DNA of 64,000 bases, from NCBI GenBank assembly GCA_029210545.1, contig JARGFV010000001.1, forward strand, positions 15,542 through 79,541, written 5' to 3'. The notes beneath the pieces are model-generated. The model made no database searches, was not told the DNA's origin, and was given only the letters and a program-made list of their open reading frames with translations. The translations under genes and the position numbers were made by a program. Within the stretch, counting starts at the first letter, position 1; the number at the start of each line of letters is the position of its first letter. Origin of the DNA: a bacterium (GTDB lineage: Bacteria > BMS3Abin14). Of the stretch, positions 3,609 to 63,985 are shown in pieces.

Positions 3609-4154
3609 TGTTACAGGGTCGCAAAAATGTCCAGGCGGGACTACTGTTAACCGCCAAAGTCCGTGCGGGCCTTCGGCTCAAGGGAAGGCGAAAAGCGTCG
3701 TTTCCGCCTTCCTCACCGAGACTGCTGATAATCACCGACATGTTTGCCGGTCACTGATCTATGCGCCCCGCGCGGGGCGCATAGATGGACTTTCTGCATG
3801 TCCATCAACTTTGCAGACCCGCCCGGTGTTGCGGACCGTGCCCGCACACGAAAGTGGGCAACTGTACACTTTTGTGTGCAGCGAACCAGGGGATCGGCCT
3901 GAGCAAAGTGAAAAGTGATGGAAGGACCGTTCCTGGTTCCCGGGTATAAGGCTCCAGGTCCAGGAACCAGTCACGACCTTCTCCTTTCTCCTTTCTCCTT
4001 TCTCCTTTCTGCCTTCTCTCACACCCTGGCCAACCCGACAGTCCTTTCAAACCGTAGGCTGGCTAAATAAGGTTATCGTGATTAACTGTTATCAAGTTCT
4101 TATTGCGGGGCCGCTCCATTTAGCACGGCCCCCCCCGGGCGAGAGGCTGTCATC
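3609..4154. other. Non-coding spacer with an old family B copy and a heptameric tract
   Basis: No convincing gene. Positions 3612-3804 are a diverged family B element (CAGGGTCGCAAAAA at the left, GGACTTTCTGCATGTCCATC at the right, central CGCCCCGCGCGGGGCG palindrome) without a recognisable target duplication. Positions 3978-4020 are a tandem tract of the 7-mer CTTTCTC. Positions 4108-4136 can fold into a GGGGCCG/CGGCCCC hairpin just before the binding-protein gene. Confidence 0.65.
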
Positions 4155-5321
4155 ATGAAAAAGTCCCTCCTTTTCTTCCTTGCTGTCTTCGCCCTGATCC
4201 AGATATCGGCCCGAGCTGCTGAACCTGTCCGGATCGGCCTGACCCTCGGGCTCACGGGAAAGTACACCGAGATGTCGGCCATGCAGATGAAAGGGTACCG
4301 GTTATGGAAAAAGCAGGTGAACGACCGGGGCGGGATTGCCGGCCGACCTGTAGAACTTATCATCCGGGACGACGGGAGCGACGGCCCGGCCGCGGCCGGC
4401 CTGTATGAGGAGATGATGGGGAGCCGCAAAGTAGACCTCGTCTTCGGGCCCTACGCCAGCGCCATCACCGCTGCCATCCTCCCCGCAGCCGAACGGCACG
4501 GCTACCCCGTCCTGGTAGGCGGCGCGTTCTCGGACCAGCCTTGGTCCCAGGGGCGCCGCAATGTTTTCGGGGTTTACACACCGGCGAGCCGGTACACCGT
4601 GGGGTTTCTGGAAATGCTGGTGGCCAGCGGCGTCGACCGCCTGGCTATCCTGGCCACTGATGATGTTTTCTCACAGAGCGCTGCCGATGGTGCCGCCAAA
4701 TGGGCCGGGCGCTACGGACTTGAGGTCGTTTACCGGGAAACGTTCCCCAAGGACAAGCAGGAACTCGACGACGAGATCGGCCGGGCCCGGGAATCCGGCG
4801 CCAGCCTCCTGATCATGTGCGGTCATCTCCAGGAGGCCGTCTCGGGCAGGGAAGCCCTGTCCCGCGCCGGGTGGCAACCCGCCGCCTATTACGCCACCGT
4901 AGGACCGGTGCTGCAAGAATACGCGGACCGGCTCGGTCCGCTGGCCGAGGGGACATTCTCGTCCTCGCAGTGGGAACCCGACCCGGACCTGGATTTCCCG
5001 GGATCACGCCAGTTCCTGGAGGAGTTCACGGCCACCTACTCAACGGCGCCGTCCTACCACGCCGCCACCGCTTTCGCAACAGGGACCATCCTCGAACAGG
5101 CCGTCCACAGGGCAGGGGGTATCGACCGGGAAAAACTCACCGAAGCGCTGTTCACCCTGGATACCATGAGCATCATCGGCCGGTATGGCGTCGATCGCAC
5201 GGGGATGCAGATCCGTCAGTTCCCCGTGATCACCCAGTGGCAGGAAGGACGCAAAGAGATCACCTGGCCCGAGGAGATCAAGACCGCAGACCCCGTATTC
5301 GGACGGACGGATCATGATTAA
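4155..5321 (+). CDS. Periplasmic ligand-binding protein, branched-chain amino acid type
   Basis: A 388-residue solute-binding protein of the Leu/Ile/Val class (Peripla_BP_6). A signal peptide covers about residues 1-21 (MKKSLLFFLAVFALIQ, cleavage near ARAA). The typical opening follows (VRIGLTLGLTGKYTEMS), then the lobe segments GGIAGRPVELIIRDD and DLVFGPYASAITAAILPA. No ABC permease or ATPase gene is nearby. Instead its stop codon overlaps the start of a sensor histidine kinase gene, so I infer that it senses a small molecule for that kinase rather than serving in import. GAGAGG precedes the ATG. The ligand cannot be predicted. Confidence 0.88.
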   Translation: MKKSLLFFLAVFALIQISARAAEPVRIGLTLGLTGKYTEMSAMQMKGYRLWKKQVNDRGGIAGRPVELIIRDDGSDGPAAAGLYEEMMGSRKVDLVFGPYASAITAAILPAAERHGYPVLVGGAFSDQPWSQGRRNVFGVYTPASRYTVGFLEMLVASGVDRLAILATDDVFSQSAADGAAKWAGRYGLEVVYRETFPKDKQELDDEIGRARESGASLLIMCGHLQEAVSGREALSRAGWQPAAYYATVGPVLQEYADRLGPLAEGTFSSSQWEPDPDLDFPGSRQFLEEFTATYSTAPSYHAATAFATGTILEQAVHRAGGIDREKLTEALFTLDTMSIIGRYGVDRTGMQIRQFPVITQWQEGRKEITWPEEIKTADPVFGRTDHD

Positions 5322-7434: not shown

Positions 7435-7496
7435 GGGATTTTAGTTCACGGTTCGCGGTTCACAGCCAAGGCTTTCGATCTCATCCGACCCGTCAA

Positions 7497-7925
7497 CTAG
7501 GAATCTGTCGGAGAACCTCCCTGTTTTTAACAGGGAGGGCACAGACTCCTAGCTGGAGTTTGTCGGAACATATTTTTTTGAGTCTTTTTTTATATAATAC
7601 CTTGTGTTAACAATGACTTGCAATCTTCACCCGCAACTTTGACAGGGTCGCAAAAAGTCCAATCCGGGACTTTTCGCTCCACGGAAAGGGAAAAGCGTCA
7701 TTTTCCCTTTCCTCACGGATCGCTGACATGATTTCCGGTCATCGATCCGGGCGCCCTTCCCAAGCGCGGCTAGTCATTGATTTGGGCGCCCCGCGCGGGG
7801 CGCGTTGATGACTTTTTGCGGGTCCATCAACTTTATCACCTGTTGATCTGAAGGCAAAAAGCATTAGAAAAGTCGTTCCGACAAACTTTTACGCAGCGTG
7901 TCAGGGTTTTCCGACACGCTGCTAG
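7497..7925. mobile_element. Family A element, copy A1, interrupted by family B copy B2
   Basis: The left end at 7497 has CTAG followed by a hairpin (GGAATCTGT pairing with ACAGACTCC). The right end has the arm pair GCAGCGTGTC and GACACGCTGC and ends in CTAG at 7922-7925. Between them, a complete family B element of 186 bp (7641-7826) is flanked by GCAACTTT and TCAACTTT, matching at 7 of 8 positions. The nesting shows that B transposed after A was already in place. Core sequences TTTGTCGGAA and TTCCGACAAA mark the inner inverted repeats of A. Confidence 0.75.
7641..7826. mobile_element. Family B miniature element, copy B2 (nested)
   Basis: 186 bp, starting GACAGGGTCGCAAAAAGTCC and ending CTTTTTGCGGGTCCA. 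It includes the GGAAAGGG/CCCTTTCC hairpin and the GCGCCCCGCGCGGGGCGC palindrome. Compared with other copies, its third hairpin has changed in both arms (GGATCG with CGATCC instead of AATCA with TGATT), so pairing is kept. It is inserted inside family A copy A1. Confidence 0.75.
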
Positions 7926-11149: not shown

Positions 11150-11151
11150 GA

Positions 11152-12522: not shown

Positions 12523-14106
<1,584 letters not shown>

Positions 14107-16011: not shown

Positions 16012-16055
16012 TAAAAGTATCCAGTAGTCAGTAAACAGAGGTCAGTAGAAAAAGC

Positions 16056-16088: not shown

Positions 16089-16122
16089 TTACCTTTACTG
16101 ATCAATGCCTACCGGATACTGA

Positions 16123-17118
16123 TTACTGCCTACTGATTACTTTTCTCAGCACCCACATCCCCTTCTCATCTGTGTAGCTTTGCACTCTTCCATCCACAAC
16201 CTCGACCTGGAGCTGCTTTCCGATGCCGGGTGAGGCCTCGAGAAACCTTTCCTCCAGAGCCTTCACACCTTTATCTTCCAGTCCGACCCTCCGTGCCCAC
16301 TCCTCGAAGGGATGGGTACGGCTGAACAGATCAAAAGAGACGACCTCCAGACCAGCCTGGGCGATCAACCCTGCCCACCCATTGACCGTATCCGACCTGA
16401 CGTGACTCGGATCACGCTGTCGCTCCACCTCGTTGAGGAACCTGTCACATTCCGGGTCATCTGGAACGATACTGTCGATGATCACGGCACAGCCATCCCT
16501 GGCCAGGACACGCCTGACCTCGCGCAGGAAATTTTTCAGGGAGGGGAAATGATGTGGCGCGACGCGGCAGGTCAGAAGCTGGATACAACCGTTACCTAGG
16601 AGCCTGTCGGAGAACCCCATGCAGGCTCCTAGATATAGTTTTTCGGAAGTAGCATTTAGACCGAAAAAAACAAATATATGGCACATTTGGTAATTCACCG
16701 GAGTTATTTACCGGTTTAATGCTCTTGTTTTCAAGAAAAGACCCAAAAAAGGGCTTTCCGAAAAACCTACAGCAGCGTGTCAAGAGGTTTTCCGACACGC
16801 TGCCAGGGGCAGGTTCTCGGCCGACGACTGGACCAGCATCAGGTCCGTGATCCCGATCCCGGCAAGGTGTGTCCTCGTCACCTGGAGCATCTCCATGGTC
16901 AGGTCCAGCCCAATGCAGCGGCCCGACAGGGGAGCCGCCGCTCTTAACGCATGTCCGGCTCCCGTCGCGACATCCACGGTCAATGCCGGGCAATGCTCAT
17001 ACGCCACCTTCCGGATAAGGGCAAGGTCCGGTCCCGTTCCATGATCGGAACTCGAAAGATATCTGTCGGCACTTGCCGAGAAGGTATTCCGCGGATCACT
17101 GCTCCGGGCGGAGGTCAC
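16123..17118 (-). pseudogene. SAM-dependent methyltransferase, split by a family A element
   Basis: A UbiE-like class I methyltransferase in two halves in the same frame. The 5' half runs from GTG 17118 (overlapping the upstream stop as GTGA) with the SAM-binding motif VDVATGAGHALRA and IGLDLTMEMLQ, up to SSAENLPL. The 3' half resumes at about 16595 with GNGCIQLLTCRVAPHHF and continues to 16123 (REVRRVLARDGCAVIID). The 203-bp family A element plus a 4-bp duplication (207 bp, divisible by 3) lies between them and introduces stop codons. Removing it gives ENLPLGNGCIQLLTCRVAPHHF-type continuity, matching the usual ENLPFxDGSFDLVTCR pattern, split here for brevity. The enzyme should be non-functional. 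Its substrate is unknown. Confidence 0.85.
16596..16806. mobile_element. Family A miniature element, copy A2, inside a gene
   Basis: 203 bp between CTAG (16596-16599) and CCAG (16803-16806, a one-base variant of CTAG). The left hairpin pairs GGAGCCTG with CAGGCTCC. The right hairpin pairs AGCAGCGTGTC with GACACGCTGC. The ends are inverted repeats of about 20 bp: TAGGAGCCTGTCGGAGAACC against TAGCAGCGTGTCGGAAAACC-type sequence with the outer base pairs reading TGGCAG in this copy. Nearly identical to copy A4 at 61016, so it moved recently. No coding capacity. Confidence 0.9.
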
Positions 17119-18513: not shown

Positions 18514-19413
18514 ATGAGTGATCGACGAGACAAAGAGCTTCAGGCATTATGTGTCCTTGAGCCCGGCGAAGGAACCGAATCGATCCTTGCATACCTTCAA
18601 AGCCGAAACGTACAGTGCCGGCTGTCCGACAAGATCCCTGCTTCCGGGACCGGTAGTTGTGATCAGGAATGGGATCTCATCCTCATCGATGCCGACATTG
18701 AGCACGGGGACATCATGGGGTTCTTCGAATATTGCCGAACGATCCATAATGCCTCACCGCTGGTCGCCCTTCACCGCGGGGGGCGTGGAAGCAGGGACGC
18801 AGCCCTCATCCGCATGGGCGCCTACGACGCTTTTCCCAGGAACATTGACCGGTGGAACACGGAAGTCTACCTGGACCGTGCCATTTCACAGGCCCACCAG
18901 GCAAAGGCCCTCCTTTCCATGTCCCGGACCGACCACGTAACAGGCCTGTATAATCAGAGGTTCATGTACGAAAACCTGGGGCGGGAAATTCGCAGATCCT
19001 CAAGGACAGGCAAGGATCTCACGGTCGCCCTTCTGGACCTTGACAACTTCAAGGCTTACAACGACACCTATGGTCACCTCATGGGGGATAAGGCTCTTGG
19101 CGAGATCGCGAATATTCTGTTGAACTCCATACGAAAGGGAGTTGACAGCGCATACCGTTACGGAGGTGACGAGTTCACCCTCATCCTGCCGGAGACCGAC
19201 TTGCCCCAGGCGGTCAAGACCCTGGACAGGGTGCTGACAAAACTGGCCCGGCAAACCCCCGGAGAGTTGACTTTCAGTGTGGGGCTGGCCCTCATGAGTT
19301 CCTGCGAGAACGTCGAACAGGTTCTCCGCACCGCCGACGAGGCGATGTACGAGGCCAAGGAAGCCGGGGGCAACGGGGTCGTGACGAAGGTATGTGGGGA
19401 AAAGCAGAACTAA
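18514..19413 (+). CDS. Diguanylate cyclase with degenerate receiver-like N terminus
   Basis: About 299 residues. The first 120 or so resemble a receiver fold without phosphorylation residues (WDLILIDADIEHGDIMG, HRGGRGSRDAALIRMGAYDAF). A complete GGDEF domain follows: DHVTGLYNQRFMYENL, LLDLDNFKAYND, and an intact active site YRYGGDEFTLILPE. It should make cyclic di-GMP. The inhibitory RxxD site is altered (KGVD at the expected distance), so product inhibition may be weak. The start is uncertain. ATG 18514 or TTG 18508, both after GGAG, are preferred over a frame opening at 18373 that overlaps the divergent gene. Confidence 0.88.
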   Translation: MSDRRDKELQALCVLEPGEGTESILAYLQSRNVQCRLSDKIPASGTGSCDQEWDLILIDADIEHGDIMGFFEYCRTIHNASPLVALHRGGRGSRDAALIRMGAYDAFPRNIDRWNTEVYLDRAISQAHQAKALLSMSRTDHVTGLYNQRFMYENLGREIRRSSRTGKDLTVALLDLDNFKAYNDTYGHLMGDKALGEIANILLNSIRKGVDSAYRYGGDEFTLILPETDLPQAVKTLDRVLTKLARQTPGELTFSVGLALMSSCENVEQVLRTADEAMYEAKEAGGNGVVTKVCGEKQN

Positions 19414-19514
19414 GTACTATGTACTTGGTGCTGGGTGCTGGGTGCCAAGAAATATCCATGCACCAGAATTCAGGAAATCCCTTAGCTCTAAGTACTTAGT
19501 ACCTCGTACTGCCC

Positions 19515-19799: not shown

Positions 19800-19904
19800 A
19801 GGGAATACCTCCAGGGGGAAGTTTACAGTTTACAGTTTACAGTTCATGGTTCAGGAAGTCATGTACCCCCTGCAAAGCCGGGGGATTTCCCTAAGTATTA
19901 ATTA

Positions 19905-20396: not shown

Positions 20397-20563
20397 GCCT
20401 TTGTCCCTTTTCCTCAATCTTTCCTTCCTCCCTGGAAGGAGATTGAGGGAATATGGAATGTGGAAGGTAGAAGGTAGAAGGTGGAAGAAGAGAAAAAGAA
20501 CGACACCCATGCTTTTCTTCCCTATTCCCTATTCCTCATTCCCTGTTCCGATTTCTCCCTTCC

Positions 20564-23356
20564 CTATTCCCTATTCCCCCTTCCCCATTCTTTTTTTAAC
20601 CCCACGGTCTTGTACATGAAATTCCTGAACCTGGTCATCGCCTCCCCCTCCTCGCGGCTGTCTGCAGGCAGGGCGCCGAGATGGCGGGCGGCCCCTCTCA
20701 CCCCTCCCCCCTCGGCAAGGGCCAGCCTGTAAATTTCCAGGACAGTCCCGCGAGTCAGGTCCCGGGACATGAATGGGATGTGGACGAGCTCCCAGAAATC
20801 GCCCGCTCCCTTGCGGATCTGCCCGTAGATCGCCGCGGCGTCTCCCTGGACATTCTTGCCGTCAAGGGTGGAGAGGGAAAGAAACCTCTGGATCTCGTCC
20901 ACCCCCACGATCCCGTCATCGCTTTCGAAGAGAGCTCCCTGCAGGATGGTCACAAGCTGGCGGATATTTCCGGGGAAGTCGAGATGGGAGATAAACTCCT
21001 CGGCCTCCGGCGTGATGACGGGCGGCGCGCCCCCGGCTGAATAACTCGCATGGAGACGACCCAGGAAGTGTTTGGCCAGATCGGGGATGTCCTCCCGCCT
21101 GTCCCTGAGGGAGGGAACCCGGAGGGTCATCTCGCTGAGCCGATGGTAAAGATCCTCCCGGAAGGCACCCCTTGCGATCTCCCTTGCCAGGTCCCGGTTG
21201 GTGGCGGCGACAAAAACGACCCTGCTGAGCCGGACCTTGGTTCCTCCCAGCCGTGAAAACTCTCCCGAATCCAGGAAGCGCAGCAGCTGGACCTGGGTCT
21301 TGAGATCAGCGTCGCCGATCTCATCGAGGAAGACCACCCCTCCGTCCGCCTCCTCGAGGATTCCCGTCCGGTCGACATGGGCACCTGTATAGGCCCCCTT
21401 CTGGTGCCCGAACAGTTCAGTAAAGGTGAGATCTCCACTGAAAGCGGCGATATTGGTTTTGCGCAGGGGCAGTTCCAAAGCACCCCCGCCCAACTTTCTG
21501 AACTTTTCGTTGACCAGGCTGTACAGGTTGTTGAACACGAACTCCTTGCCGGCCCCCGTCTCCCCCGTTATGAGAAGGGTCGGCAGCCCCAGCTCCAGTT
21601 CCTTCTCTTTACCGCGGCTCCAGTTAAGGAGCCTGTTGGTCAAAGGTTCGGCCAGCCTGCTGATCCGCTTGACCAGGAGCTGCGAGTGGGCGCTCTTGCC
21701 GATGATATTCCCGAGCAGGTAGGAACTGACACCGGGGTCCTTGTAGGAGACCTCCTTGCGCAGCCTCGCCACCTTTCCCTCGAGTTCACTGATCTTCAGA
21801 TGGTCGGCGATGCGGTTGGCGATGAGGCGGGATATGAGAAGGAGGATGCGCTGGTGTTCGACAGTGAAATAGGCCCGACGGTGGCTGTCCAGGTTGACCA
21901 CTCCGAGGACCGATTCACCTAACCTGATGGGGACCGCGAGTTCCGAAGCCACGTCAGCGGCAAGGTTCCGGTAGAACCCTCCCCTGGCCGTTTCGGCATC
22001 CGTATCCGGACAAAGGTACGGTTTTCCCGTGAAAGCCACATACCCCGTCAGAGAGCGTTCCTCGGCAGGGAGTTCCTCACCACCCACCCTCAGATCGGGG
22101 ATCTTCGCCTTTCTCCAGTCACGGGATTTGCCCCCCACCAGCCGCCCTTCGGCGTCATCGACGACAAGCCACTTCTCCTGGTTCCGTTCGGTCACCAAAG
22201 CGATGGAGCCCGATTCGGCGCCTACCAACTCCACAGCGCGGGAGGCGACCTTGCCCAGGAAGACCGGCATGGGAGCGTCCTCGGCGAGAAGCTCCTCGAT
22301 CTCCGAAAGGACACGTATTTCGAGGTGTCCCACCGCGAAGTCAGTGATACCTGCCGCCAGGGAACTCGAATGGCTCATGAGGAGTTTGAGTTCCGGCTCG
22401 GTGAACCTGTGGGGGCGCTTCGTAAAATAGTTGATGACGCAAGTCACCTCGCCCCCCTCCCCGGAGACGGGGATCATGAGGAGGGTGCGCAGGGAAAGCC
22501 TCTTGAACACCTCCCACCGCTCGAACTCCTCTGCCAGGATATCCTCGAAAAAAAGGACCTGGGGGGCACCCGGGCGCCGGAGGACGCGGTCGCCATCGGG
22601 CATGACCAGGCGGGAAAGGAGGCTTTTGCCCTCGAGGAGGCTGATTCTCTCGAGGGTCTCGTAGATCTGGAGATCCGACGGGTCCCGGGAGGCGGCAGCC
22701 AGGATCTCCATGTACCCCCCTCTCTCCCGCTTGAGGACTTCGGGCACCGGAGACTGCGCCGATATCAGGACCGATGTCATATCGATGGCAAGGTCGATCT
22801 CGAAGGCACCTTTGAGAAGTATCCTGGCGGCATCCCTTTTCCTGGACCGGTCCAGCTGCCGGCTGAGCATGATCCGCCTGTTGAACCGGTGGGCCCTGGC
22901 GAGAATGGGCATGATCCTATTGAGGAGCTGCCGCAGTTCCTGCTTCATGTCCGACAAGAGGGCATGACTCTCGGCGGCGTCCACGGTCAGGGCACCGATG
23001 CAGTTGCCTGCATCCACGAGGGGGAAAACCGTCGCCACAGACAGGCCGCGCCGTTCGTACCACTCCCGGTGGAGTTCGTCACTGCCCTCCCCGAGGGGGG
23101 CATCCGTCACGATCTTCGATTCCAGGAACGACCGGACGAGGGGGTTCTCCCGTCTCTGGATAGGGATACGGGCTCCCTTCCTCTCCAGTTCTCCCTCCGG
23201 CGTGTAAAGGCACAGGAGAGCGCCCTCCCGCATATCCTCCAGGTAGACACGGATCGAGGGTACCCCGGTTCTCAGGGTCACCTCCTTGACCAGGTAGTGA
23301 AGGATGTCGAGAAGGTTCTCCTTGTCGAAGGAAAGGATCTGGTCAACGAAGGACAT
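20564..23356 (-). CDS. GAF-domain AAA+ regulator of the sigma54-activator type
   Basis: About 930 residues. Two or three GAF-like sensory regions span about 1-540 (FPLVDAGNCIGALTVDA, LMIPVSGEGGEVTCVINYFT, ELAVPIRLGESVLGVVNLDS). The AAA+ domain has Walker A GETGAGKE (about 595), a GAYTGA loop (about 654, instead of GAFTGA), Walker B GGVVFLDEIGD (about 672) and the sensor region RVVFVAATNRDL. The C-terminal tail (GGGVRGAARHLGALPADSRE) only weakly resembles a Fis-type helix-turn-helix, so DNA binding is doubtful. Start ATG 23356 follows GGGAG and overlaps the M23 gene by 14 bp. It ends inside a pyrimidine-rich repeat zone. Confidence 0.85.
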   Translation of the reverse strand: MSFVDQILSFDKENLLDILHYLVKEVTLRTGVPSIRVYLEDMREGALLCLYTPEGELERKGARIPIQRRENPLVRSFLESKIVTDAPLGEGSDELHREWYERRGLSVATVFPLVDAGNCIGALTVDAAESHALLSDMKQELRQLLNRIMPILARAHRFNRRIMLSRQLDRSRKRDAARILLKGAFEIDLAIDMTSVLISAQSPVPEVLKRERGGYMEILAAASRDPSDLQIYETLERISLLEGKSLLSRLVMPDGDRVLRRPGAPQVLFFEDILAEEFERWEVFKRLSLRTLLMIPVSGEGGEVTCVINYFTKRPHRFTEPELKLLMSHSSSLAAGITDFAVGHLEIRVLSEIEELLAEDAPMPVFLGKVASRAVELVGAESGSIALVTERNQEKWLVVDDAEGRLVGGKSRDWRKAKIPDLRVGGEELPAEERSLTGYVAFTGKPYLCPDTDAETARGGFYRNLAADVASELAVPIRLGESVLGVVNLDSHRRAYFTVEHQRILLLISRLIANRIADHLKISELEGKVARLRKEVSYKDPGVSSYLLGNIIGKSAHSQLLVKRISRLAEPLTNRLLNWSRGKEKELELGLPTLLITGETGAGKEFVFNNLYSLVNEKFRKLGGGALELPLRKTNIAAFSGDLTFTELFGHQKGAYTGAHVDRTGILEEADGGVVFLDEIGDADLKTQVQLLRFLDSGEFSRLGGTKVRLSRVVFVAATNRDLAREIARGAFREDLYHRLSEMTLRVPSLRDRREDIPDLAKHFLGRLHASYSAGGAPPVITPEAEEFISHLDFPGNIRQLVTILQGALFESDDGIVGVDEIQRFLSLSTLDGKNVQGDAAAIYGQIRKGAGDFWELVHIPFMSRDLTRGTVLEIYRLALAEGGGVRGAARHLGALPADSREEGEAMTRFRNFMYKTVGLKKEWGRGNRE

Positions 23357-28167: not shown

Positions 28168-28275
28168 ACGCGCCTCCCGCGACAGTTAATGGTTTACAGT
28201 TTACTGTTCACCGTTGTTTTCTTTTAACAAACACGCTCTGACTGTAAACCGTATACCGTGAACTGTTAACTTGAC

Positions 28276-34304: not shown

Positions 34305-34691
34305 ATGCTCGACCGGCCCCAAAAAAAGATCCTCGTCATCGAGGATGACCCTGATATCAGGAGCCTGACAGGATTCATTCTCCGGGACGACTACGAGGTG
34401 ATCTCCAGCGAGGACGGGCGCAAGGGGATGGAAAAGGCCAGGGAGGAAAGGCCTGACCTTGTTCTCCTGGACATCTACATGGCCGGGTTATCCGGGTTCG
34501 AGGTTTGCCGTATGCTCAAGGAGGAACCGGAAACGGCCTCGATCCCGGTCATCATGCTGACCGCCGGGGCACAGAAAGATGAGGTGTCGGAAGGGTACGC
34601 CTCGGGAGCCGACGATTACATCATCAAACCTTTTGAACCGGGAGAGCTGATTGAAAGGATCGAAAAACTACTTTTGAGATCCAGGATCTAA
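34305..34691 (+). CDS. Single-domain response regulator
   Basis: A 128-residue CheY-like receiver with a full phosphorylation site: acidic residues D14-D15, acceptor D56 (LVLLDIYMAG), T86 (VIMLTAG) and K108 (DYIIKPFEPGEL). No output domain. The last codons and the stop lie within a 7-bp periodic tract (GATCCAG-like, about 34675-34706), so the C-terminal tail (LLLRSRI) may derive from repeat sequence. No kinase gene is adjacent. The HisKA_2 kinase at 5314 lacks a partner in this window, but a link is not shown. Confidence 0.93.
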   Translation: MLDRPQKKILVIEDDPDIRSLTGFILRDDYEVISSEDGRKGMEKAREERPDLVLLDIYMAGLSGFEVCRMLKEEPETASIPVIMLTAGAQKDEVSEGYASGADDYIIKPFEPGELIERIEKLLLRSRI

Positions 34692-34777
34692 AATCCAGGA
34701 TCCGGAAGACCACTCCCCACAAAATCAAAGACATACCTATCCAGACTGATCCCATGGGATGCCCTGGATCTTGGATC

Positions 34778-35644
34778 TTAGATCCTGGGCCTTGGATGGG
34801 AACTTTCCGCTATCAGGAAAACAAGATCACGAACCACCTTTGCCGCCACCGCCCCCGACGGACCCCCCATCCCCGCCAGCGGACAGTATTCCACCACGTC
34901 AGCGCCAACGATCCTGGCACCCCTCAGGGGCATCAGGGCATCGCGCAGCTGAGGATAGCTCAGACCGCCGGGCTCAGGTGTCCCGGTTTCGGCCATGACA
35001 GAAGGATCCAGGACGTCAAGGTCCACGCTGAGGTAAACAGGCCGCTGACCGACGATTCCGGCAAGGTCACCGGCATCGGCGAGAAGCATTCCGTGCTTCC
35101 TGGAAAAAAACCATTCTTCCCTGGTTCCGGACCGGATACCGTACTGACAAAGGCCCCCCGGTCCCACCAGGTCGAACACTCTCCTCATGACAGTGGCATG
35201 GGAGTGCTTCCGCCCTTCGTAATCGTTCCTGAGGTCCATGTGCGCATCCATCTGGATAACCACGAGGTCAGGACAGGTTGCGAGACACCCCTCCACCGCC
35301 GGAAGGGTAACGAGGTGTTCACCCCCCATAAGGAGAGGGGATTGCCCGGCGGCCACAGCCGCACCTACAGTTTTTCTGACACATTCCGAAACCGCGGTCC
35401 AGGCGGATGCGGGAGCGACAATGTCCCCGGCATCCGCCAGGCTTAACTCCTCCAGGTCGGCATCGAACACGGGGCAGTAGCTCTCCAGGACAGCAGACCA
35501 CATCCTGATGGCCCCCGGGGCAAACCTGGCTCCCGGACGGAAGGAGGCCGTCTGGTCGAAAGGCACACCCATGAGAACGATATGAGAGCTGTCCACAGCC
35601 CCGTCGGCGGACAGGTAACCGGAAAGGCCCGTACGCAATGTCAT
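34778..35644 (-). CDS. speB: Agmatinase, ureohydrolase family
   Basis: A 288-residue manganese enzyme converting agmatine to putrescine and urea. Metal-binding motifs are complete: LMGGEHLVTLPAVEG, VVIQMDAHMDLRND and YLSVDLDVLDPSVMAETGTP. It overlaps the spermidine synthase stop codon by 4 bp. It is the last gene of speD-pdaD-speE-speB, which supports agmatinase over other ureohydrolases. The stop codon region falls inside a heptameric tract (TGGATCT-like, 34763-34800), so the last residues (SSHPRPRI) may be repeat-derived. Confidence 0.94.
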   Translation of the reverse strand: MTLRTGLSGYLSADGAVDSSHIVLMGVPFDQTASFRPGARFAPGAIRMWSAVLESYCPVFDADLEELSLADAGDIVAPASAWTAVSECVRKTVGAAVAAGQSPLLMGGEHLVTLPAVEGCLATCPDLVVIQMDAHMDLRNDYEGRKHSHATVMRRVFDLVGPGGLCQYGIRSGTREEWFFSRKHGMLLADAGDLAGIVGQRPVYLSVDLDVLDPSVMAETGTPEPGGLSYPQLRDALMPLRGARIVGADVVEYCPLAGMGGPSGAVAAKVVRDLVFLIAESSHPRPRI

Positions 35645-41683: not shown

Positions 41684-42549
41684 AACCTCTCCTCAAAAAA
41701 CGGAGCGGTTTTAAGTAAAATTCCAAATTTGATAGGGTCGCGAAAAGTCCAATCCGGGACTTTTCGCTCCACGGAAAGGGGAAAGCGTGGTTTTCCCTTT
41801 CCTTATAAATCAATGACTTACAGTGTGAGTCATTGATTTGGGCGCCCCGCGCGGGGCGCGTTGATGGACTTTTTGCGAGTCCATCAAATTTCGGTTCATC
41901 ACAATAATGCGTACCTGTGTGTTGTCACTCCAGGACTCTTAAAGGCGATCACCACGGAGCACACAAAGAAAGCCTGAACCTGGGGGAAGACTCAGGCGCG
42001 CACCGCAAAACCCCTGAACCCTGGCGCGAAGCGCCCTTCGATCACGCCGTTGGCGTGATAAAGCCGGGCGGAGCGGCCTTTAGCTGACCGCGCTCCCCAG
42101 AATCTCGATTGAATTGATTTTCGAGATTCTGGGGATAAAAAAACCCCATTGGCGTGGTAAGTTACGTTTCAAGCTTGAAACGACCCATGACACAATGACA
42201 GCCCATGCCGGTCTGGCCCGGGCGAGTTCGCGGAAGGGAGCAGGCTTCCCTTTCTGGTGGACCGTCACCTGCCGTTGCCCGGCAGCGGGGCCGGTTATCG
42301 TCCGTCGGAGTTCGTGATGCCATACCCGAAATTCGCCGAAAGCGCCCTTTCGGTCGGGGCTGGACGGTCAACGAGTGACGTAGGGCGGCAAGTTCAACAG
42401 CAACACGGCTCCATGCAAAAAATAGCCCCCTCAATGCCCCGACCGGAGGCCAGCCAAAACCAATCGCGGATTTCGGGTGGTTAGTTGGCTTTTTCCTGCA
42501 ATAGCGTTAATAACTGTTTTTTAGCTGTTAGCTGCCTGTTGGAGATCCA
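41684..42549. other. Repeat-rich spacer, no gene
   Basis: It contains family B copy B3 (41731-41883). It also contains a short hairpin TCACGCC-GTT-GGCGTGA (42042-42058), a perfect 14-bp inverted repeat CCCCAGAATCTCGA (42095-42108 with 42121-42134), a GTGGTAAGTTA word (42154-42164) also found at 47465 and 51180, and an 18-bp palindrome CGTTTCAAGCTTGAAACG (42165-42182). Tandem TAGCTGT-like heptamers follow (42520-42541). Open frames on either strand have no family resemblance. Confidence 0.7.
41731..41883. mobile_element. Family B miniature element, copy B3
   Basis: 153 bp with hairpins AAAGTCC/GGACTTTT, GGAAAGGG/CCCTTTCC, AATCAATGACT/AGTCATTGATT and the palindrome GCGCCCCGCGCGGGGCGC. Terminal sequences are GATAGGGTCGCGAAAAG and CTTTTTGCGAGTCCA. 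The flanks CCAAATTT and TCAAATTT match at 7 of 8 positions. Same length as B4 but in the opposite orientation. Confidence 0.8.
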
Positions 42550-45145: not shown

Positions 45146-45185
45146 GCCGCAGCACGAAGCGCAAAGTTCGAAGAACGAAGGAAGA

Positions 45186-45338
45186 TGGACTCGCAAAAAG
45201 TCCATCAACGCACCCCGCGCGGGGTGCCCAAATCAATGACCTGTACCGTAAGTCATTGATTTGTAAGGAAAGGGAAAACGACGCTTTTCCCTTTCCGTTG
45301 AGCAAAAAGTCCCGGATCGGACTTTTTGCGACCCTGTC
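45186..45338. mobile_element. Family B miniature element, copy B4
   Basis: 153 bp flanked by a perfect 8-bp direct repeat AAGGAAGA (45178-45185 and 45339-45346), the best evidence for target duplication in this family. Ends TGGACTCGCAAAAAG and CTTTTTGCGACCCTGTC. The GC palindrome here is CACCCCGCGCGGGGTG, where both arms changed relative to GCCCCGCGCGGGGC. The element separates amrS from the MEMO-AMMECR1 gene. Confidence 0.88.
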
Positions 45339-45622
45339 AAGGAAGAGCTTGCAAAAAAGTCCTTCCATTGAATCATTCCCTTTGTTCTTAAGTAACATGA
45401 GGGCAACCTAAAATGAAACATAACGCGTCAAATCCGGACAAAAAAAGCAAAGGAAATAGCAGCGACCTCCCTTCGCGCTTCGCTCTTCGCGCTTCGTGCT
45501 GTCCTGACTTTACGAAGGGTATACAGATAATATCGAGAAGGGACCTGATTCGTATGTTCGCAGGTCTTTCAATAATTGCACTCGTCCCATTCCGCTGGTC
45601 GGTTCGTAAAGTCAGGACTTCC

Positions 45623-51255: not shown

Positions 51256-53541
51256 TCAGCGGCCCTTACCTATTGATAGGCCCGCCGCGATGGCCACCGA
51301 GAGCAACAAGCAGTACCGGATCGGGGCGTACAACCCGATGGCAAGGGGCAGCACCAGTCCGCACACAACCGTCCCGAGAGCGGCTCCGAGAAGGTCCACG
51401 CCGTAGGCGGCCCCGCCCGGATATTTCACCCCGGCGGACTCCAGCAGGGCGCTGCCCGCTCCGAAGCTCATGCCCGTCAGCAAGCCGGCCCCGGTCATGA
51501 GGAGAAGGTAAAGAAGGAGGCCGGCCCATTCCTGGAGCACCCAACCAGGATCGATCCACACCGTGACCGTCACGAGCAGGAAGTATCCTGTCCACAGCCA
51601 CGCCGTTCGAGAGGGCTGAGCGTCCCGGACCATGGCCCCGAGTGCCATTCCCACCATAAAAAAGGCTAGCAGCAGAGCCATGCGGGAGTAGAGGTAGCCG
51701 AAACCCGTCTGGTACAGGTACATGAGCGCCGTTTCCGCCGCGATCCCCGAAAATCCTCCCAGGAAGAGGACCAACAATCCCCTCGTGGTCTCACTCCTCA
51801 TAGTCCCGGCGCCAAAACCACCAAAGATCACCATCACAAGAACAGCTACAAACAGGTACCACGCAACACCGTTTCCGATGGCTGACAGAAGCCCGGCGTC
51901 GGCGGTGCGGCCTCTCCACAGGGTGAGACGGTATCCCACGGCCGAGGGGACGAGATCGGCATTGGGACGGACATCTCCGGAGTCAGACAGGGCCTGGCTG
52001 ACAGCCTCCATCCTGTCCTTCGAGAGATCGGCAGACAGATACTCCGGGACCATGAAGCGAAGATCCAGATTTCGTTCAAGGGCTATGGAAGCGGCAAGGT
52101 CACCGGTCAGGGGTGACAGCGGCCCCCGGCCGCACAGGGCGGTATAACGGTCGAGGGGATACCAGGCGCGGTGCGGGAATGAGAGAGACAAGGCCCCATC
52201 CAGGGATGCCAGGTAGCGGCCCATGGCAGGGGCAATGTAGTTGCCCGGTTCGCCTGCTGCCAGACTGAGAATCCCATCCGGTGAGAGGGCCAAAGCGATG
52301 AGCCGGAAAAACTCGGCCGAGTAGTACCGGTTGTAAAGCAGGGTCCCGGGATCTGGCAGGTTGAGTATAACCACATCGTACCGTCCCCCGGGAACCATCC
52401 TCAGGTACCGCCGCGCGTCACCCGGGATCAGATCGACCCTCTCATCGGCAAGGGCTCTCGCCGTGGAGCTGATATTGAGAGCCTCCAGGCGCACCACGGC
52501 CTCGTCTAAAACCACAACATCCACCGACCTCACGGGGTGAGCCAGGACCTGTTCCAGGACACCGGTGATGTGGGAGGTCACCAGCAGGACTCTTCCGGGC
52601 ATCGGATGGACCATGAGAGCAGGCTGGACAGCCTGCTCGGCCGATCTTCGGTCCGGGTCGGTCATCATGGGCGAACCGTCGTAAAAGAGAACCGTTTGAT
52701 CCAGGAACAGGTCTGAAGTGGATCCTGATGCCCTTCCTTCCTCATTCCACCTTCCTCCTTCCTCCTGCCTGTTTTTCAAAGGTTTTCCCCATGCCAGGCT
52801 GCCCAGGGGAGACTGGACACCGAGGACCGGAAAATAAGGATAAAAACGGGCCTGGCGGGTGGAAGAATCGGAAGGGATGCCGGACAAGGTAATGGGGATA
52901 AAAAAGATGAGGACCAGTGCGGATGCCGACCAGCGCGTCGGTCGATCGCCCCAGCCCAGGACGATAACGGCGGCCGTCACCCCGACACCGACAGTCCACG
53001 CCAGACCCAATCCATCGAAAAAGCGCACGCCTGCGGCAAAGAAAAAGACCCCGCCCAGTGCCGCTCCCGCTGATTCAGCTGCAAAAGCTGATGCGCCGCG
53101 GCCCCGCCCTGATGCTGCAGCCCCGAAAGTGAAGTCCGAACCATCGGTCAGGCAGAAAGGGGCCAGGAGAAGGGCATAGGCCAGGCCGATAAAACCCAGC
53201 CCCACCACCTGCCCCACGGGAACGCCCAACAGGGGCCGAAGAAGGTCCAGGGAGACGGTGGTCAGGGGAAAAAGGACGGCGAGGAGAAGGAGGGCGAGGT
53301 ACAGGGCCCTTTCGGGCCGTTGGAGCCGGGGAAAGAGCCTGCGGGCAAGCAGCCCTCCGGCACTGACCCAGGCCAGCCACACAAAAAGGCCGACAGCAAG
53401 GCCCAGTTCGTTGCCGGAAAAGTTGGCGATGCCCCTGCGCAGGAAGGTGATCTGGGCCAGGGCGGTAATGAAGCCCAGGAGCCCAAGGGTGAGGTATATC
53501 CGTACGTGCGTGCGTACGTAGGTGCGTGAGGGCGTTTCCAT
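51256..53541 (-). CDS. Integral membrane spermidine-synthase-like protein
   Basis: A 761-residue protein: about seven N-terminal membrane helices, a spermidine-synthase-like domain (about 270-450; VLLVTSHITGVLEQVLAHP, VDVVVLDEAVVRLE, RYDVVILNLPDPGTLLYNRY) and about seven C-terminal helices. The SAM loop reads TSHITG rather than the canonical GGGDGG, so aminopropyl transfer is doubtful. Such fused proteins are common and uncharacterised. A 7-bp periodic tract (52735-52785) encodes an in-frame low-complexity insert (RQEEGGRWNEEGRASG, about residues 252-270). The N-terminal residues (YVRTHVRIY) come from a TACGCACG-type repeat, so the true start may be later. Confidence 0.85.
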   Translation of the reverse strand: METPSRTYVRTHVRIYLTLGLLGFITALAQITFLRRGIANFSGNELGLAVGLFVWLAWVSAGGLLARRLFPRLQRPERALYLALLLLAVLFPLTTVSLDLLRPLLGVPVGQVVGLGFIGLAYALLLAPFCLTDGSDFTFGAAASGRGRGASAFAAESAGAALGGVFFFAAGVRFFDGLGLAWTVGVGVTAAVIVLGWGDRPTRWSASALVLIFFIPITLSGIPSDSSTRQARFYPYFPVLGVQSPLGSLAWGKPLKNRQEEGGRWNEEGRASGSTSDLFLDQTVLFYDGSPMMTDPDRRSAEQAVQPALMVHPMPGRVLLVTSHITGVLEQVLAHPVRSVDVVVLDEAVVRLEALNISSTARALADERVDLIPGDARRYLRMVPGGRYDVVILNLPDPGTLLYNRYYSAEFFRLIALALSPDGILSLAAGEPGNYIAPAMGRYLASLDGALSLSFPHRAWYPLDRYTALCGRGPLSPLTGDLAASIALERNLDLRFMVPEYLSADLSKDRMEAVSQALSDSGDVRPNADLVPSAVGYRLTLWRGRTADAGLLSAIGNGVAWYLFVAVLVMVIFGGFGAGTMRSETTRGLLVLFLGGFSGIAAETALMYLYQTGFGYLYSRMALLLAFFMVGMALGAMVRDAQPSRTAWLWTGYFLLVTVTVWIDPGWVLQEWAGLLLYLLLMTGAGLLTGMSFGAGSALLESAGVKYPGGAAYGVDLLGAALGTVVCGLVLPLAIGLYAPIRYCLLLSVAIAAGLSIGKGR
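52735..52785. repeat. Heptameric tract inside a coding region
   Basis: On the plus strand CCTTCCT, CATTCCA, CCTTCCT, CCTTCCT, CCTGCCT run head to tail with a 7-bp period. The tract resembles those in spacers but is in frame with the membrane spermidine-synthase-like gene. It lies just before the start of the cytosolic domain. Confidence 0.8.
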
Positions 53542-54876: not shown

Positions 54877-54894
54877 CGAAGTCACTCCTCCCAC

Positions 54895-54938
54895 ACGGTT
54901 CACGGTTCACGGTTCACGGTTCACGGTTCACAGTTCAC
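54895..54938. repeat. Heptameric tract GGTTCAC
   Basis: Five nearly perfect copies of the 7-mer (A/C)GGTTCAC in tandem, then CAGTTCAC. The same unit family occurs at 7441-7470, 19820-19853 (TTTACAG form), 28185-28212, 28240-28270 and 57357-57392. Non-coding spacer between the FHA activator and aldolase genes. Confidence 0.9.
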
Positions 54939-54946
54939 ACCTCGCT

Positions 54947-57338: not shown

Positions 57339-57356
57339 AGTGGTCCCGGTTCACTT

Positions 57357-57392
57357 TTCAAGGTTCACGGTTCACAGTTCACCGTTTATACC
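57357..57392. repeat. Heptameric tract GGTTCAC
   Basis: AAGGTTCACGGTTCACAGTT then CACCGTTTAT: three to four copies of the same 7-bp unit as at 54895, here in the divergent spacer before the deacetylase gene. Confidence 0.8.
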
Positions 57393-59036: not shown

Positions 59037-59114
59037 AAAGGCCGTCCATGGTCCAACGTCCAAAGTAAAGGCAGCCTCGATCCTCAAATTTCCGATCCGG
59101 AATCGGAGTTAATA

Positions 59115-60365: not shown

Positions 60366-60468
60366 TCAAGATGCAACGGATTCTTCCGACTCAGTGTCTG
60401 GTGTCTGGGGTCTGGGGTCCAGGTTCCGGGGTTGACGTCTAAGAGCCAGGTGCTAGGTTCCAGGGGCT

Positions 60469-60800: not shown

Positions 60801-61019
60801 ATGTTCAAACGCAGGGTTTCAGAAGCCGAGAGGCGAAGACGCGCGTTGAAGATCGACATCCTGAGAGAGCGCCGGCACACCCGCCCGGACCGGCGCACCG
60901 GGCTGTACGACCGGAGGCTCCGGTTCATGGACAGGCGGCAGCGGCACGACGAATCGTGGATGGGCGCCTTCGATCGGCGCATCAGGAGTATGGATCGGAG
61001 GAGGAAAAGCAGGACCTAG
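60801..61019 (+). CDS. Small arginine-rich protein with DRR repeats
   Basis: A 72-residue, very basic protein with repeated DRR words (RPDRRTGLYDRRLRFMDRR, FDRRIRSMDRRRKSRT). GAGG lies six bases before the ATG. Such spaced DRR sequences occur in small proteins of unknown role. Its stop codon TAG lies in the CTAG that is the target site of family A copy A4, so the element inserted exactly at the end of the gene without changing the protein. Binding to nucleic acid or acidic lipids would fit its charge but is an inference. Confidence 0.7.
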   Translation: MFKRRVSEAERRRRALKIDILRERRHTRPDRRTGLYDRRLRFMDRRQRHDESWMGAFDRRIRSMDRRRKSRT

Positions 61020-61226
61020 GAGCCTGTCGGAGAACCCCATGCAGGCTCCTGGATATAGTTTTTCGGAAGTAGCATTTAGACCGAAAAGAACAAATATATG
61101 GCACATTTGGTAATTCACTGGAGTTATTCACCGGTTTAATGCTCTTGTTTTCAAGAAAAGACCCAAAAAAGGGCTTTCCGAAAAACTTACAGCAGCGTGT
61201 CAAGAGGTTTTCCGACACGCTGCTAG
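61016..61226. mobile_element. Family A miniature element, copy A4
   Basis: 203 bp between two CTAG copies (61016-61019, 61223-61226). Same length as A2 and differing from it at only a handful of positions (for instance AAGAACA against AAAAACA in the core). Terminal inverted repeats and both hairpins are complete. It inserted in the CTAG overlapping the stop codon of the DRR-protein gene. The near identity with A2 shows recent mobility. Confidence 0.9.
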
Positions 61227-61234
61227 GACTCAGT

Positions 61235-62023: not shown

Positions 62024-62029
62024 AGCAGT

Positions 62030-62062
62030 AGTCAGTAGTCAGTAGTCAGTAGTCCGGGAAAA
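62030..62062. repeat. Heptameric tract CAGTAGT
   Basis: Four tandem copies of the 7-mer CAGTAGT directly upstream of the DUF116 gene. The tract at 62070-62130 continues with other 7-bp units (TTCGCGC, TTCGATC, TTTGCTC, TTCGCGC). The related CAGTAGT/CAGTAAA form occurs at 16022-16049. Confidence 0.85.
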
Positions 62063-62148
62063 CTGGAACGAAACACAAGGAGTGAAGAACGTAGGGATAT
62101 TGTTCTTCGCGCTTCGATCTTTGCTCTTCGCGCCGGCCTTTACCCCCA

Positions 62149-62844
62149 TCACGATCTGGCCCCCATTTCGCTGATCATGTTCTCGTAGGCTCTTCGGATA
62201 AGCCGTTCGATCGGTTCCGGGGCGACCGGATCGAACTCGGCGAAACCGATGCTGAACCTGATCTCGTGCTGGTCTTCCATCTGTCTGTGCTGGGCCGCCA
62301 CGTTCATCATGACCCTTTCGTAGATCGTCTCCGCGAAGACGAGAGACGCCTTGGGCAGGAAAGCCACGAGTTCGTCCTTGTCGTACCTTGCCAGGATGTC
62401 CGACCCCCTGAGGGAGTCCAGAAAGGCCTGGGCCACAAGGACGACGATCTGCTCGGCCGCCTCGTCACCCCTGGAGTCGATGAGCTTGTCCAGGTCGTTG
62501 ACGTTGAGCATGACCACCAGGCTTTTTTCGGAGAACCTTTCCGCCGCGCTCAGCAGGGGCTCAACCAGTCCCTGGAAGGCCCGACGGTTGGAAAGGCCGG
62601 TGCTCTCGTCAACGGTTTTCAGGGTCCTCCCGGAGGCGGAGGAAGGCTCCCCCCAGAAACTTCCAGCCGGGGTTACCGCCACACCGATGAGAACAACACC
62701 CAGGGCCCATGAAAGCCCGAGCAGGAGAGAGAGCCTCAGGTCAGCCACGCCCGCTTTGTGGGGGATCATATAAACGAGAACGAGCCCTGCCGTCCAGAAC
62801 AGGGTGCTTCCGAAACCGATGGATATTCTGGCCGCCCTTTTCAA
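62149..62844 (-). CDS. Membrane protein with degenerate GGDEF domain
   Basis: A 231-residue protein with two N-terminal membrane helices (about 10-28 and 38-58) and a GGDEF-fold domain (DESTGLSNRRAFQGLVEPLL through IRFSIGFAEFDPVAPEP). The active-site loop reads ARYDKDELVAFLP, so the GGDEF signature is lost and catalysis is unlikely. It may act as a nucleotide-binding or interaction module. TTG 62844 with GGAGG five bases upstream. Monocistronic. Confidence 0.85.
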   Translation of the reverse strand: MKRAARISIGFGSTLFWTAGLVLVYMIPHKAGVADLRLSLLLGLSWALGVVLIGVAVTPAGSFWGEPSSASGRTLKTVDESTGLSNRRAFQGLVEPLLSAAERFSEKSLVVMLNVNDLDKLIDSRGDEAAEQIVVLVAQAFLDSLRGSDILARYDKDELVAFLPKASLVFAETIYERVMMNVAAQHRQMEDQHEIRFSIGFAEFDPVAPEPIERLIRRAYENMISEMGARS

Positions 62845-63018
62845 GTCACCCTCCGAATTACATCTGTGCCTGAGCTATCAGCTTTAAGCTGCTGACTGTC
62901 AGCTTTTACCATAAAGCTCCATCACCGATAAATAGATTTTAACAGATAGGGTGCTCATCTGAAACCAGGCAACTCGAGGTTGTCCCCCCTTCCCACTTCC
63001 CCCGCGCCCTGCCGGGCA

Positions 63019-63060
63019 CAAAAAAGATCCGGGGCCGCCTTGTGGCGGCCCCCGGATCCG
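63019..63060 (-). terminator. Strong terminator of the DUF6429 gene
   Basis: On the minus strand, GATCCGGGGGCCGCC pairs with GGCGGCCCCGGATC around ACAA and is followed by TTTTTT, 30 bp after the stop codon at 63089. A textbook rho-independent terminator. Confidence 0.9.
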
Positions 63061-63088
63061 GGAGCCTGGTGACAGTTCACATGTCGTT

Positions 63089-63319
63089 TCAGGAAAAGTA
63101 TTTCCTGAAAAGCTCCTCCGAACTTTTCTGACCCTCGTCAGTGAGATCCACCGACCTCGATTTGCTTTTCGGGTTGGCGATGAACCCCTTCTGGTGAAGG
63201 CGGTCCAGGACTTCCCAGTCGTGTCCTTTCCATGTCCGGTATCCGGACGCATCCCGGAAAGTTGTCAGGTGCATGAGAGCCAGCACCGCCTCGTCAACCC
63301 TTTTTTCGTCGTATTTCAC
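63089..63319 (-). CDS. DUF6429 family protein
   Basis: A 76-residue protein with the pattern I associate with DUF6429: YDEKRVDEAVLALMHLT, WKGHDWEVLDRLHQKGFI and SRSVDLTDEGQKSSEELF. It reads like a small winged-helix module. Function unknown. GTG 63319 is preceded by AAGGAGGTGATC, a perfect complement of the 16S rRNA tail, which suggests high expression. A GTG three codons earlier lies inside this site. A strong terminator follows the gene. Confidence 0.85.
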   Translation of the reverse strand: MKYDEKRVDEAVLALMHLTTFRDASGYRTWKGHDWEVLDRLHQKGFIANPKSKSRSVDLTDEGQKSSEELFRKYFS

Positions 63320-63394
63320 CCTGATCACCTCCTTTCCTGCCGCCGAAACGCGGCGTTTGGAAAGGGGGGGTGCAATCAGAAGGCCAGGTGCTCG

Positions 63395-63450
63395 TGTGTG
63401 CGTAAGTCCGTAGATGCGTAAGTCCGTAAGTGCATGGGTGCGTGGGTGCG
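63395..63450. repeat. Octameric tract AAGTCCGT / GGGTGCGT
   Basis: AAGTCCGT, AGATGCGT, AAGTCCGT, AAGTGCAT, GGGTGCGT, GGGTGCGC follow head to tail with an 8-bp period. Similar units occur at 53490-53530 and, in TTTACGC form, at 53583-53620 and 63483-63520. Confidence 0.8.
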
Positions 63451-63526
63451 CAGGTACTTATTTGCGTAAATTCGCTACTTGAATGCCTTTTCGCATTTAC
63501 GCTTTACGCACGTACGCTCCACGTGA

Positions 63527-63856
63527 TCACTTTCCCGGTAGCGACAAGGCGAAGTCACGGCCAAGTGCGAGCCATCTTTCCAGTTCGTCCGGGTCCTCCC
63601 ACCGGGAGCCGTCCACCATGACCCATCCCTTCATGGCTTTCCCCGTTACGTCGAAGGGGGTGATGCCATCCTCCTGGAGAAACCGCTCAGCAGTCTCGGG
63701 GCCGGTGCGGACGATGAGATAATCTTGCCAGATCCCGAAACCCATGTTCCCCCGGATGAGATAACACACCCCGCCGAACATCTTCCTGCTCACCATTTCC
63801 GGCCAGCCGGCGGTCAGTTCGGATATCCGGTCTTCGAGTTCAAGGTTGTAGGCCAT
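63527..63856 (-). CDS. TfoX N-terminal domain protein
   Basis: A 109-residue protein matching the TfoX-N domain: LEDRISELTAGWPEMVSRKM, FGGVCYLIRGNMGFGIW, DYLIVRTGPETAERFL and PFDVTGKAMKGWVMVD. In Haemophilus TfoX the domain belongs to a competence regulator, but stand-alone copies are common and uncharacterised. ATG 63856 with AAAGGA upstream. Isolated between spacers rich in heptameric and octameric tracts. Confidence 0.9.
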   Translation of the reverse strand: MAYNLELEDRISELTAGWPEMVSRKMFGGVCYLIRGNMGFGIWQDYLIVRTGPETAERFLQEDGITPFDVTGKAMKGWVMVDGSRWEDPDELERWLALGRDFALSLPGK

Positions 63857-63985
63857 GGCCATTCCTTTCGGAATGATGTTCACGGTTCCAAGCACCAGGT
63901 TTAGAATCCCTAGCTCTTAGCACCTAGCCCGCATTATTCATGATGCAAATGAGATGTCAGCTAACTGTGTGGCAATTAAAGATGA

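Follow-up and report, generated by a model that had tools for sequence, protein, structure and literature searches.

A bacterial genome in which many spacers carry degenerate tandem 7-mers raises the question of what is shared between these tracts, and of what process could give them one period and many units. Heptad repeats in bacteria have been noted for decades without a satisfying cause, and one small phylum in which unit, copy number, pairing and position are separately trackable across species at many loci offers a way to address them. The window, a stretch of 64,000 bp (G000, contig C1, positions 15542-79541), belongs to a 2.72-Mb metagenome-assembled genome (MAG) in 241 contigs. The nearest MreB sequences come from assorted deltaproteobacterial lineages at no more than 74% identity, which indicates a deep, mostly uncultured group. 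The comparison set for the phylum comprises 12 genomes from one family only; sampling covered G000 (458 kb), G001 (400 kb, a single contig), G003 (400 kb), G008 (620 kb, a single contig), G007 (95 kb) and G004 (130 kb). Gene calling relied on a small, self-trained, home-made finder, so spacer edges are approximate; a few were verified by eye. The analysis draws on this fractional genome sampling, on one near-species pair and on four dyads inspected for co-change.

A period of seven in intergenic DNA

The 7-bp periodicity of the spacers is real and specific. In G000 (458 kb), spacer identity is 0.292 at lag 7 vs 0.266-0.269 at lags 6 and 8, and in G001 it is 0.329 vs 0.284-0.290, with lags 14 and 21 also elevated as echoes of lag 7. 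Coding DNA has nothing at lag 7, only the lag-3 series. Segments scored in G000 (T10) number 97 at lag 7, compared with 2 at lag 4, 2 at lag 5, 5 at lag 6, 31 at lag 8, 9 at lag 9 and 1-3 at lags 10-13, while exact runs of at least two copies in the same spacers number 91 at period 7, 7 at period 6, 20 at period 8 and 6 at period 9. As in the long simple sequence repeats (LSSR) of other bacteria, tandem 7-nt units therefore exceed both chance and other unit lengths. The initial annotation of the window had proposed that the period is the common property of the tracts, and this is borne out: the excess is intergenic and genome-wide, and peaks at lag 7. The comparison of spacers with coding DNA across lags, which it had suggested, places the lag-7 excess in spacers only; other lags are lower, lag 8 has a lesser excess, and because the signal at lag 7 is equalled at no other lag the proposal stands.

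Lag-7 tracts recur in every sampled member of the family, at similar density across all spacer classes, and at least one tract is present in approximately 34% of the spacers of at least 60 bp in G000, 29% in G001 and 46-51% in G003, G007 and G008. Since tracts are found in single-contig genomes too, they are not assembly artefacts. G004, which appeared tract-free from 50 kb, has 0.97 tracts per kb of spacer over 130 kb. Lag 7 is also the highest in 80 unrelated outgroup loci (27 vs 2-12 at other lags).

Within the window (Table 1), 21 of the 24 coordinates listed by the initial annotation hold up in comparison with a first-order Markov null built from the local 150 bp (P <=0.013, most <=0.003), and the other three (42520, 62870 and 63899) are weak, with two copies only (P 0.02-0.04). 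The coordinate 60440 overlaps the tract at 60395, and the best-scoring segment in the test interval of 34675 is its partner tract at 34765. Overlooked at that stage were the inverted pair of GTTTAC type at 28182-28266, the stretches 2789-2812 and 52735-52770, and the inverted pairing itself, which is clear in the window at 16016/16119, 19406/19483, 28182/28241 and 34681/34766. Rfam returns zero matches in the window.

Table 1. Heptad tracts and other repeats in the window (positions count from its first base).
Feature	Position	Strand	Remarks
CTTTCTC tract	3979..4018		~5.7 copies, polypyrimidine
GGTTCAC-type tract	7444..7463		~3 copies, right behind gene end 7434
CCTCCCT tract	13939..13967		~4 copies, in divergent spacer
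Left arm, CAGTAGT type	16016..16038	+	begins 5 bp past gene end 16011
GC-rich hairpin GACCCGG...CCGGGTC	inside core between 16016..16038 and 16119..16141
Right inverted arm, ACTGATT type	16119..16141	-
Left arm, GTACTTN/GTGCTGG	19406..19445	+	in convergent spacer
Right inverted arm, TAGTACC	19481..19510	-
AGTTTAC tract	19820..19853		3.6-5 copies
GGAAGGT purine-rich tract	20448..20487	+	inverted vs next tract by eye (20448/20518): GGAAGGT.. vs GGAATAGG..
CCTATTC tract	20518..20590	-	~10 copies, extends into gene end 20564
Left arm, GGTTTAC/AGTTTAC	28182..28207	+
Right inverted arm, GTAAACC/GTATACC/GTGAACT	28241..28266	-
Left arm CCAGGATCTAAAATCCAGGATCC	34681..34703	+	overlaps gene end 34691
Right inverted arm GGATCTTGGATCTTAGATCCTGG	34766..34788	-	at convergent gene end 34778
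TAGCTGT	42521..42534		just 2 copies, weak, P=0.04
GCACGAA tract	45148..45189	+	right behind gene end 45145; inverted vs 45471-45500 by eye
TTCGCGC tract	45471..45500	-	inverted vs 45148 tract; with it flanks the palindromic dispersed element 45189-45333
CACGGTT tract	54894..54939		6.4 copies
GGTTCAC-type tract	57350..57386		~5 copies
GTCCATG-type tract	59044..59066		3 copies
GTCTGGG tract	60394..60430		3-5 copies
CAGTAGT tract	62026..62054		4.1 copies, perfect
TTCGCGC-type tract	62105..62131		~4 copies
Dispersed palindromic element	49-205; ~3700-3830; 7646-7823; 41736-41880; 45189-45333		~145-190 bp
Intergenic repeat	16594-16807; 61014-61227		214 bp, two copies

Inverted pairs at spacer edges

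Many tracts belong to a dyad, which we take to be their characteristic and probably ancestral form: an arm of about four heptads (28-31 bp; about 27 bp as aligned) is followed by an unrelated core of 20-200 bp and then by an inverted arm. Across all sampled genomes, a reverse-complement 8-mer partner lies within 250 bp of 201 among 638 tracts, compared with 116, 68 and 68 in the direct, reverse and complement controls, and for approximately two thirds of the tracts no partner is detected. For the 97 tracts of G000, inverted 8-mer matches no more than 250 bp away number 33 vs 10.4 with swapped flanks, and direct matches 16 vs 10.6; G003 and G008 show a similar inverted excess, which in G001 is accompanied by a rise in direct matches. 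When two tracts are adjacent in one spacer, inverted pairs with the same unit (35) far outnumber direct ones (6), where random pairs lead one to expect about 5 and 4, respectively. The arrays are thus not direct tandem repeats alone, as inverted partners occur at about threefold the level of composition controls, and, like the heptads of Xanthomonas, they form inverted, consistently oriented intergenic pairs.

For pair analyses, 122 non-redundant pairs were kept. Their cores are mostly unrelated and span 12-346 bp; the median is 65-97 bp, according to the cut-off chosen. The length distribution of near-perfect arrays has a second maximum at 4-4.5 heptads, which is strongest among paired arms. 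Arms lie 0-20 bp from gene edges in 66 cases vs 36 expected from block-slid controls, and those checked by hand either follow a stop codon directly or closely precede a ribosome-binding site. The arms are also oriented, being A-rich outside-in in a ratio of 91 to 30 (P=2.5e-8), a bias strongest in co-directional spacers (61 to 16); among unpaired tracts the orientation recurs at 3' ends (112 to 58), whereas 5' ends lack it (32 to 36).

Whether the dyad acts as DNA or as RNA can be approached through its mismatched pairs, since a stem maintained in the transcript would be expected to show more G.U than A.C on the sense strand. On the sense strand of co-directional spacers, G.U pairs number 62 and A.C pairs 96, with 28 vs 32 in convergent and 19 vs 19 in divergent spacers. 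Divergent spacers hold pairs at 13 of 105, compared with 68 of 490 for co-directional ones, a share that hinges on the home-made gene calls, and one divergent example was verified base by base. The lack of a G.U preference, together with pairs between divergent genes, places the dyad at the DNA level and speaks against an RNA hairpin or intrinsic terminator: selection for an RNA stem is not supported, and the pairing is not maintained for the transcript's sake.

Several related observations lie outside the typical dyad. Three long GGTTCAC dyads (G003 L152:2107-2261, L153:13360-13607 and L154:15094-15309) resemble one another in their core, GACAACATGCATTTTAATTATTT...CTGCATGGGTTGTTTG, which sets them apart from most dyads; this subset may therefore be a true dispersed element. 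A separate and weaker period-8 excess is found family-wide in the sampled spacers (about 20-37 tracts per 400 kb), and an excess of inverted partners is absent from these period-8 tracts (27 vs 19-24 in controls). In the 80 outgroup loci the pooled inverted excess is likewise absent (6 vs 6), though L076 and L084 contain individual pairs that are clear. Similar inverted heptad hairpins are seen in unrelated deltaproteobacterial genomes, at 3664-3722 and 6545-6719 of L086 (a Syntrophorhabdus MAG), 11051-11228 of L084 and 4523-4698 of L076.

Unit families and their turnover

The initial annotation had also described a different unit at each tract. Exact units are indeed diverse, with 58 distinct ones among 91 exact runs, but they are not unrelated from locus to locus. 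When a family is defined as at least three tracts within one mismatch, allowing for rotation and strand, 402 of the 438 tracts considered in the sampled genomes fall into 26 recurring degenerate families (AGNCCAA and ATCTCAN among them), some of them cross-genus. The largest are AGTCCAA (61), AATCTCA (48), CGATTCA (37) and ATGCAGA (33), present in several genera, and 5.6% of unit pairs lie within one mismatch vs 2.3% for shuffled units (about 2.5 times). Families can be unevenly distributed: whole-genome searches for three copies of ATCTCAN give 168 matches in G003, 153 in G008, 55 in G000, 41 in G011 and 19 in G002, and zero in G001, G004-G007, G009 and G010, while the reversed pattern has few matches. 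Palindromic cores within the units are not enriched, and are depleted if anything; mismatches cluster slightly by heptad column (mean z about 0.5).

The near-species pair G003 and G011, whose shared genes are about 83-95% identical, allows the fate of individual tracts to be followed. Their orthologous spacers of 40 bp or more number 22, of which 12 hold tracts in both species, 9 in neither and 1 in G011 only (P=2e-5). Within the shared spacers, 11 tracts differ at two or more of the seven unit positions and 3 are identical, so the rapid change of units between related genomes that the initial annotation had suggested looking for by spacer alignment is found. What persists seems to be location and geometry rather than sequence. 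Four dyads, a small number, were inspected for co-change of the two arms, and in three of them both arms changed together. At L145:19307, both arms are ATCTCA in G003 and ATTCCA in G011, with aligned lengths of 347 vs 349 bp; at L145:15047 both arms change from ATCTCA to the ATTTCA type; and at L151:1393 AGAAYGY arms correspond to AGAACCC and AGAACGC (AGAACSC). At L144:8434 the whole unit is replaced, a GATCTCA hairpin in one species standing opposite a GGTTCTG/CTAGACA hairpin in the other (165 vs 166 bp aligned), and the new arms are complementary only in part. In addition, an array of eight AGCACGC at L150:11691 corresponds to seven AGGGCGT, while the tracts at L151:3405 and L144:18500 are fully conserved. 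Between genera, too, orthologous spacers can carry dyads with different units. A separate observation concerns parS-like TGTTTCACGTGAAACA palindromes beside a ParA-like gene, at about 16330 and 19420 of L145 in G003 and at their G011 orthologues, one of which lies within a heptad-dyad core and is conserved though the arms have changed.

Single-unit inverted heptad pairs are already known from Xanthomonas and Geobacter metallireducens, and the many-unit, unit-replacing form described here is a variant of them. The GGGAATC heptads of Xanthomonas occur as inverted pairs of a single convergent orientation, about 70 to a genome, and two species largely agree in pair position and type (Rehm et al., 2015; PMC4692102). 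Both systems consist of intergenic degenerate heptads in inverted pairs, but Xanthomonas has one G-rich, G-quadruplex-capable unit, whereas the present dyads belong to about 26 families, mostly not G-rich, and retain position with a changed unit between related species. In a comparison of consensus units only, GGGNATC matches none of the 26 families. In G. metallireducens, the class 1-3 "predicted global regulator binding sites" are tandem 7- or 8-mers in opposite-strand pairs at variable distance, forming three separate families of 16-48 sites each with fixed units, for which binding by IHF/HU was guessed; class 3 consists of five MTYCTGA heptads (PMC2700814). The TCAGNAT family of G001 (L051) is the reverse complement of MTYCTGA. 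Paired tandem heptads are thus common to both, although the description of G. metallireducens shows no turnover. Cyanobacterial STRR have a few fixed heptamer units, as opposed to about 26 families over the genomes sampled here, and in Nostoc paired repeats are few (PMC4692102). On both stem sides of the Nostoc trnL intron P6b, degenerate 7-nt motifs occur, and one class replaces the other repeatedly across lineages (PMC4476775), but this is a single RNA locus with two repeat classes, unlike the many loci seen here. In the open-access text searched we found no account of a genome that combines tens of heptad families, all in one dyad architecture, with in-place unit replacement, which is not proof of absence.

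Slippage, template switching and the alternatives

The period, inverted pairing, arm length, orientation bias, retained position with a changed unit and, in a few loci, co-change of the arms are observed. The reading we lean towards, tentatively and at somewhat less than even odds, is that the tracts are dyadic heptad microsatellites undergoing concerted turnover by 7-bp slippage and arm-to-arm template switching. Two inverted arms of about four heptads each would sit at the spacer edges around a locus-specific core. Heptads inside one arm would be homogenised by slippage in 7-bp steps, which would also account for the period, and when a strand folds into a hairpin, template switching would allow the two arms to homogenise each other. 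Slippage within arms and template switching between them would together rewrite the unit in concert at a fixed place, while location and geometry persist. Unpaired tracts would either be arms without their former partner or have arisen by slippage alone. In bacteria and yeast, homogenisation of inverted-repeat arms through template switching is an established phenomenon (PMC8604942; PMC7202029). Both the mechanism and the idea that the dyads do without a sequence-specific reader are inferences from the observed patterns.

Some observations sit less easily with concerted turnover. The new arms of L144:8434, complementary only in part, count against it, and inversion of the spacer, a known by-product of template switching, was not seen between species in two testable cores. 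Nor does pure turnover predict a preference in arm length, an A-rich outside-in orientation, the cross-genus families or the likeness of arms across loci: arms of one family taken from separate loci resemble each other no less than the two arms within a locus do (0.69 vs 0.63; 9 loci), and within-locus identity above that of same-family arms elsewhere was not found (n=9). Loss of a hairpin nuclease was considered as well; SbcD falls below the curated cut-off in 12 of 12 relatives, but in a domain-wide sample only 11 of 61 genomes pass, so its apparent absence is no evidence.

Because arm length, orientation and shared families are unexplained by turnover, the structure itself may be selected. 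The main rival, which we hold to be possible at about one chance in four, is accordingly a functional hairpin or cruciform of about four heptads at spacer edges, read by shape and not by sequence, with a role as a boundary between transcription units, in supercoil release or at the mRNA end. Retention of position under unit replacement, the length peak at 4-4.5 heptads, the orientation bias with its co-directional maximum and the closeness of arms to stop codons and ribosome-binding sites all speak for selected geometry. Against it stand the sense strand without G.U preference, the similar rate of pairs in divergent spacers and the large share of tracts without a detected partner, and no machinery has been identified. 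A bolder form of this idea, which we regard as a little less likely, is a sequence-free genomic element whose geometry is inherited and selected, a putative factor recognising it in the form of a DNA hairpin or cruciform, with the sequence of both arms freely rewritten in concert. If geometry is indeed kept while sequence is replaced, alignment-based searches would miss a class of conserved noncoding elements. The many loci available make slippage, template switching, mobility and structure selection separable through strain-level sequencing.

Plain polymerase slippage, with a preferred 7-8-nt step acting on unconstrained spacer DNA and inverted partners being incidental, has been proposed for heptanucleotide repeats in many bacteria (PMC4679880; PMC4692102), where heptanucleotides dominate and units vary (Mrazek et al., 2007, as relayed in those two papers); as far as these accounts convey, the LSSR are direct repeats only, and the dyad, arm length, orientation and orthologous unit replacement are not reported. 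The raised lag 8, the similar density of tracts in all spacer classes and the lead of lag 7 in unrelated loci fit such a process. It is already weakened, and we consider it unlikely, as inverted partners are in excess with little excess of direct ones, and as orientation bias, bimodal length and concerted change in both arms would not follow from it. The initial annotation had left the choice between a process generating 7-bp repeats and selection for a spacing, and either may apply; slippage alone leaves the inverted partner, the arm-length peak and the orientation unexplained.

Non-autonomous mobile elements of MITE or REPIN type, with heptad terminal inverted repeats and decayed cores, are more doubtful still. 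Inverted arms around a variable core, dispersed families and a fixed orientation would suit them, as would one 110-bp heptad-rich block present in G011 only. Tract-bearing spacers are longer than tract-free orthologues (median +118 bp, 21 of 27), a difference confounded by the fact that long spacers hold more tracts. In opposition to mobility, the cores are mostly unrelated and of widely varying length, and units are swapped without length change at L144:8434 and L145:19307. REPINs themselves have conserved 16-mer arms linked to RAYT transposases (Bertels and Rainey, 2011; PMC3116915), and resemble the dyads in their two inverted arms, variable spacer, extragenic location, hairpin formation and dispersed families. 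A RAYT/REPIN origin is nevertheless rejected, as the arms here are many-unit heptad arrays rather than the REP 16-mer and the Y1 transposase, which 8 of the phylum's 12 genomes carry, is absent from the tract-rich G007 (98% complete).

Least probable, and in our estimate improbable, are operator arrays for proteins that stack on 7-8-bp boxes, such as the ribbon-helix-helix proteins omega of pSM19035 and MetJ, with the inverted pair permitting looping. WATCACW is the heptad associated with omega. Some units resemble WATCACW (cf. PMC9499535), the boxes are tandem and contiguous with one or two degenerate positions and form a dyad, and the G. metallireducens pairs were interpreted as regulator sites (PMC2700814), but unit replacement between species proceeds one locus at a time, with the old unit persisting elsewhere, and families and loci are too numerous for one regulator.

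Two other kinds of repeat are found in the window beside the heptad tracts (Table 1). A dispersed palindromic element has ends like AGTCGCAAAAAGTCC and a GGGCGCCCCGCGCGGGGCGC stem, and dozens more similar stretches match in G011. One copy in G003 (L145:11561-11724) is missing at the orthologous place in G011, where 30 bp are found instead, and the element therefore looks mobile. The two copies of the intergenic repeat are 97% identical.
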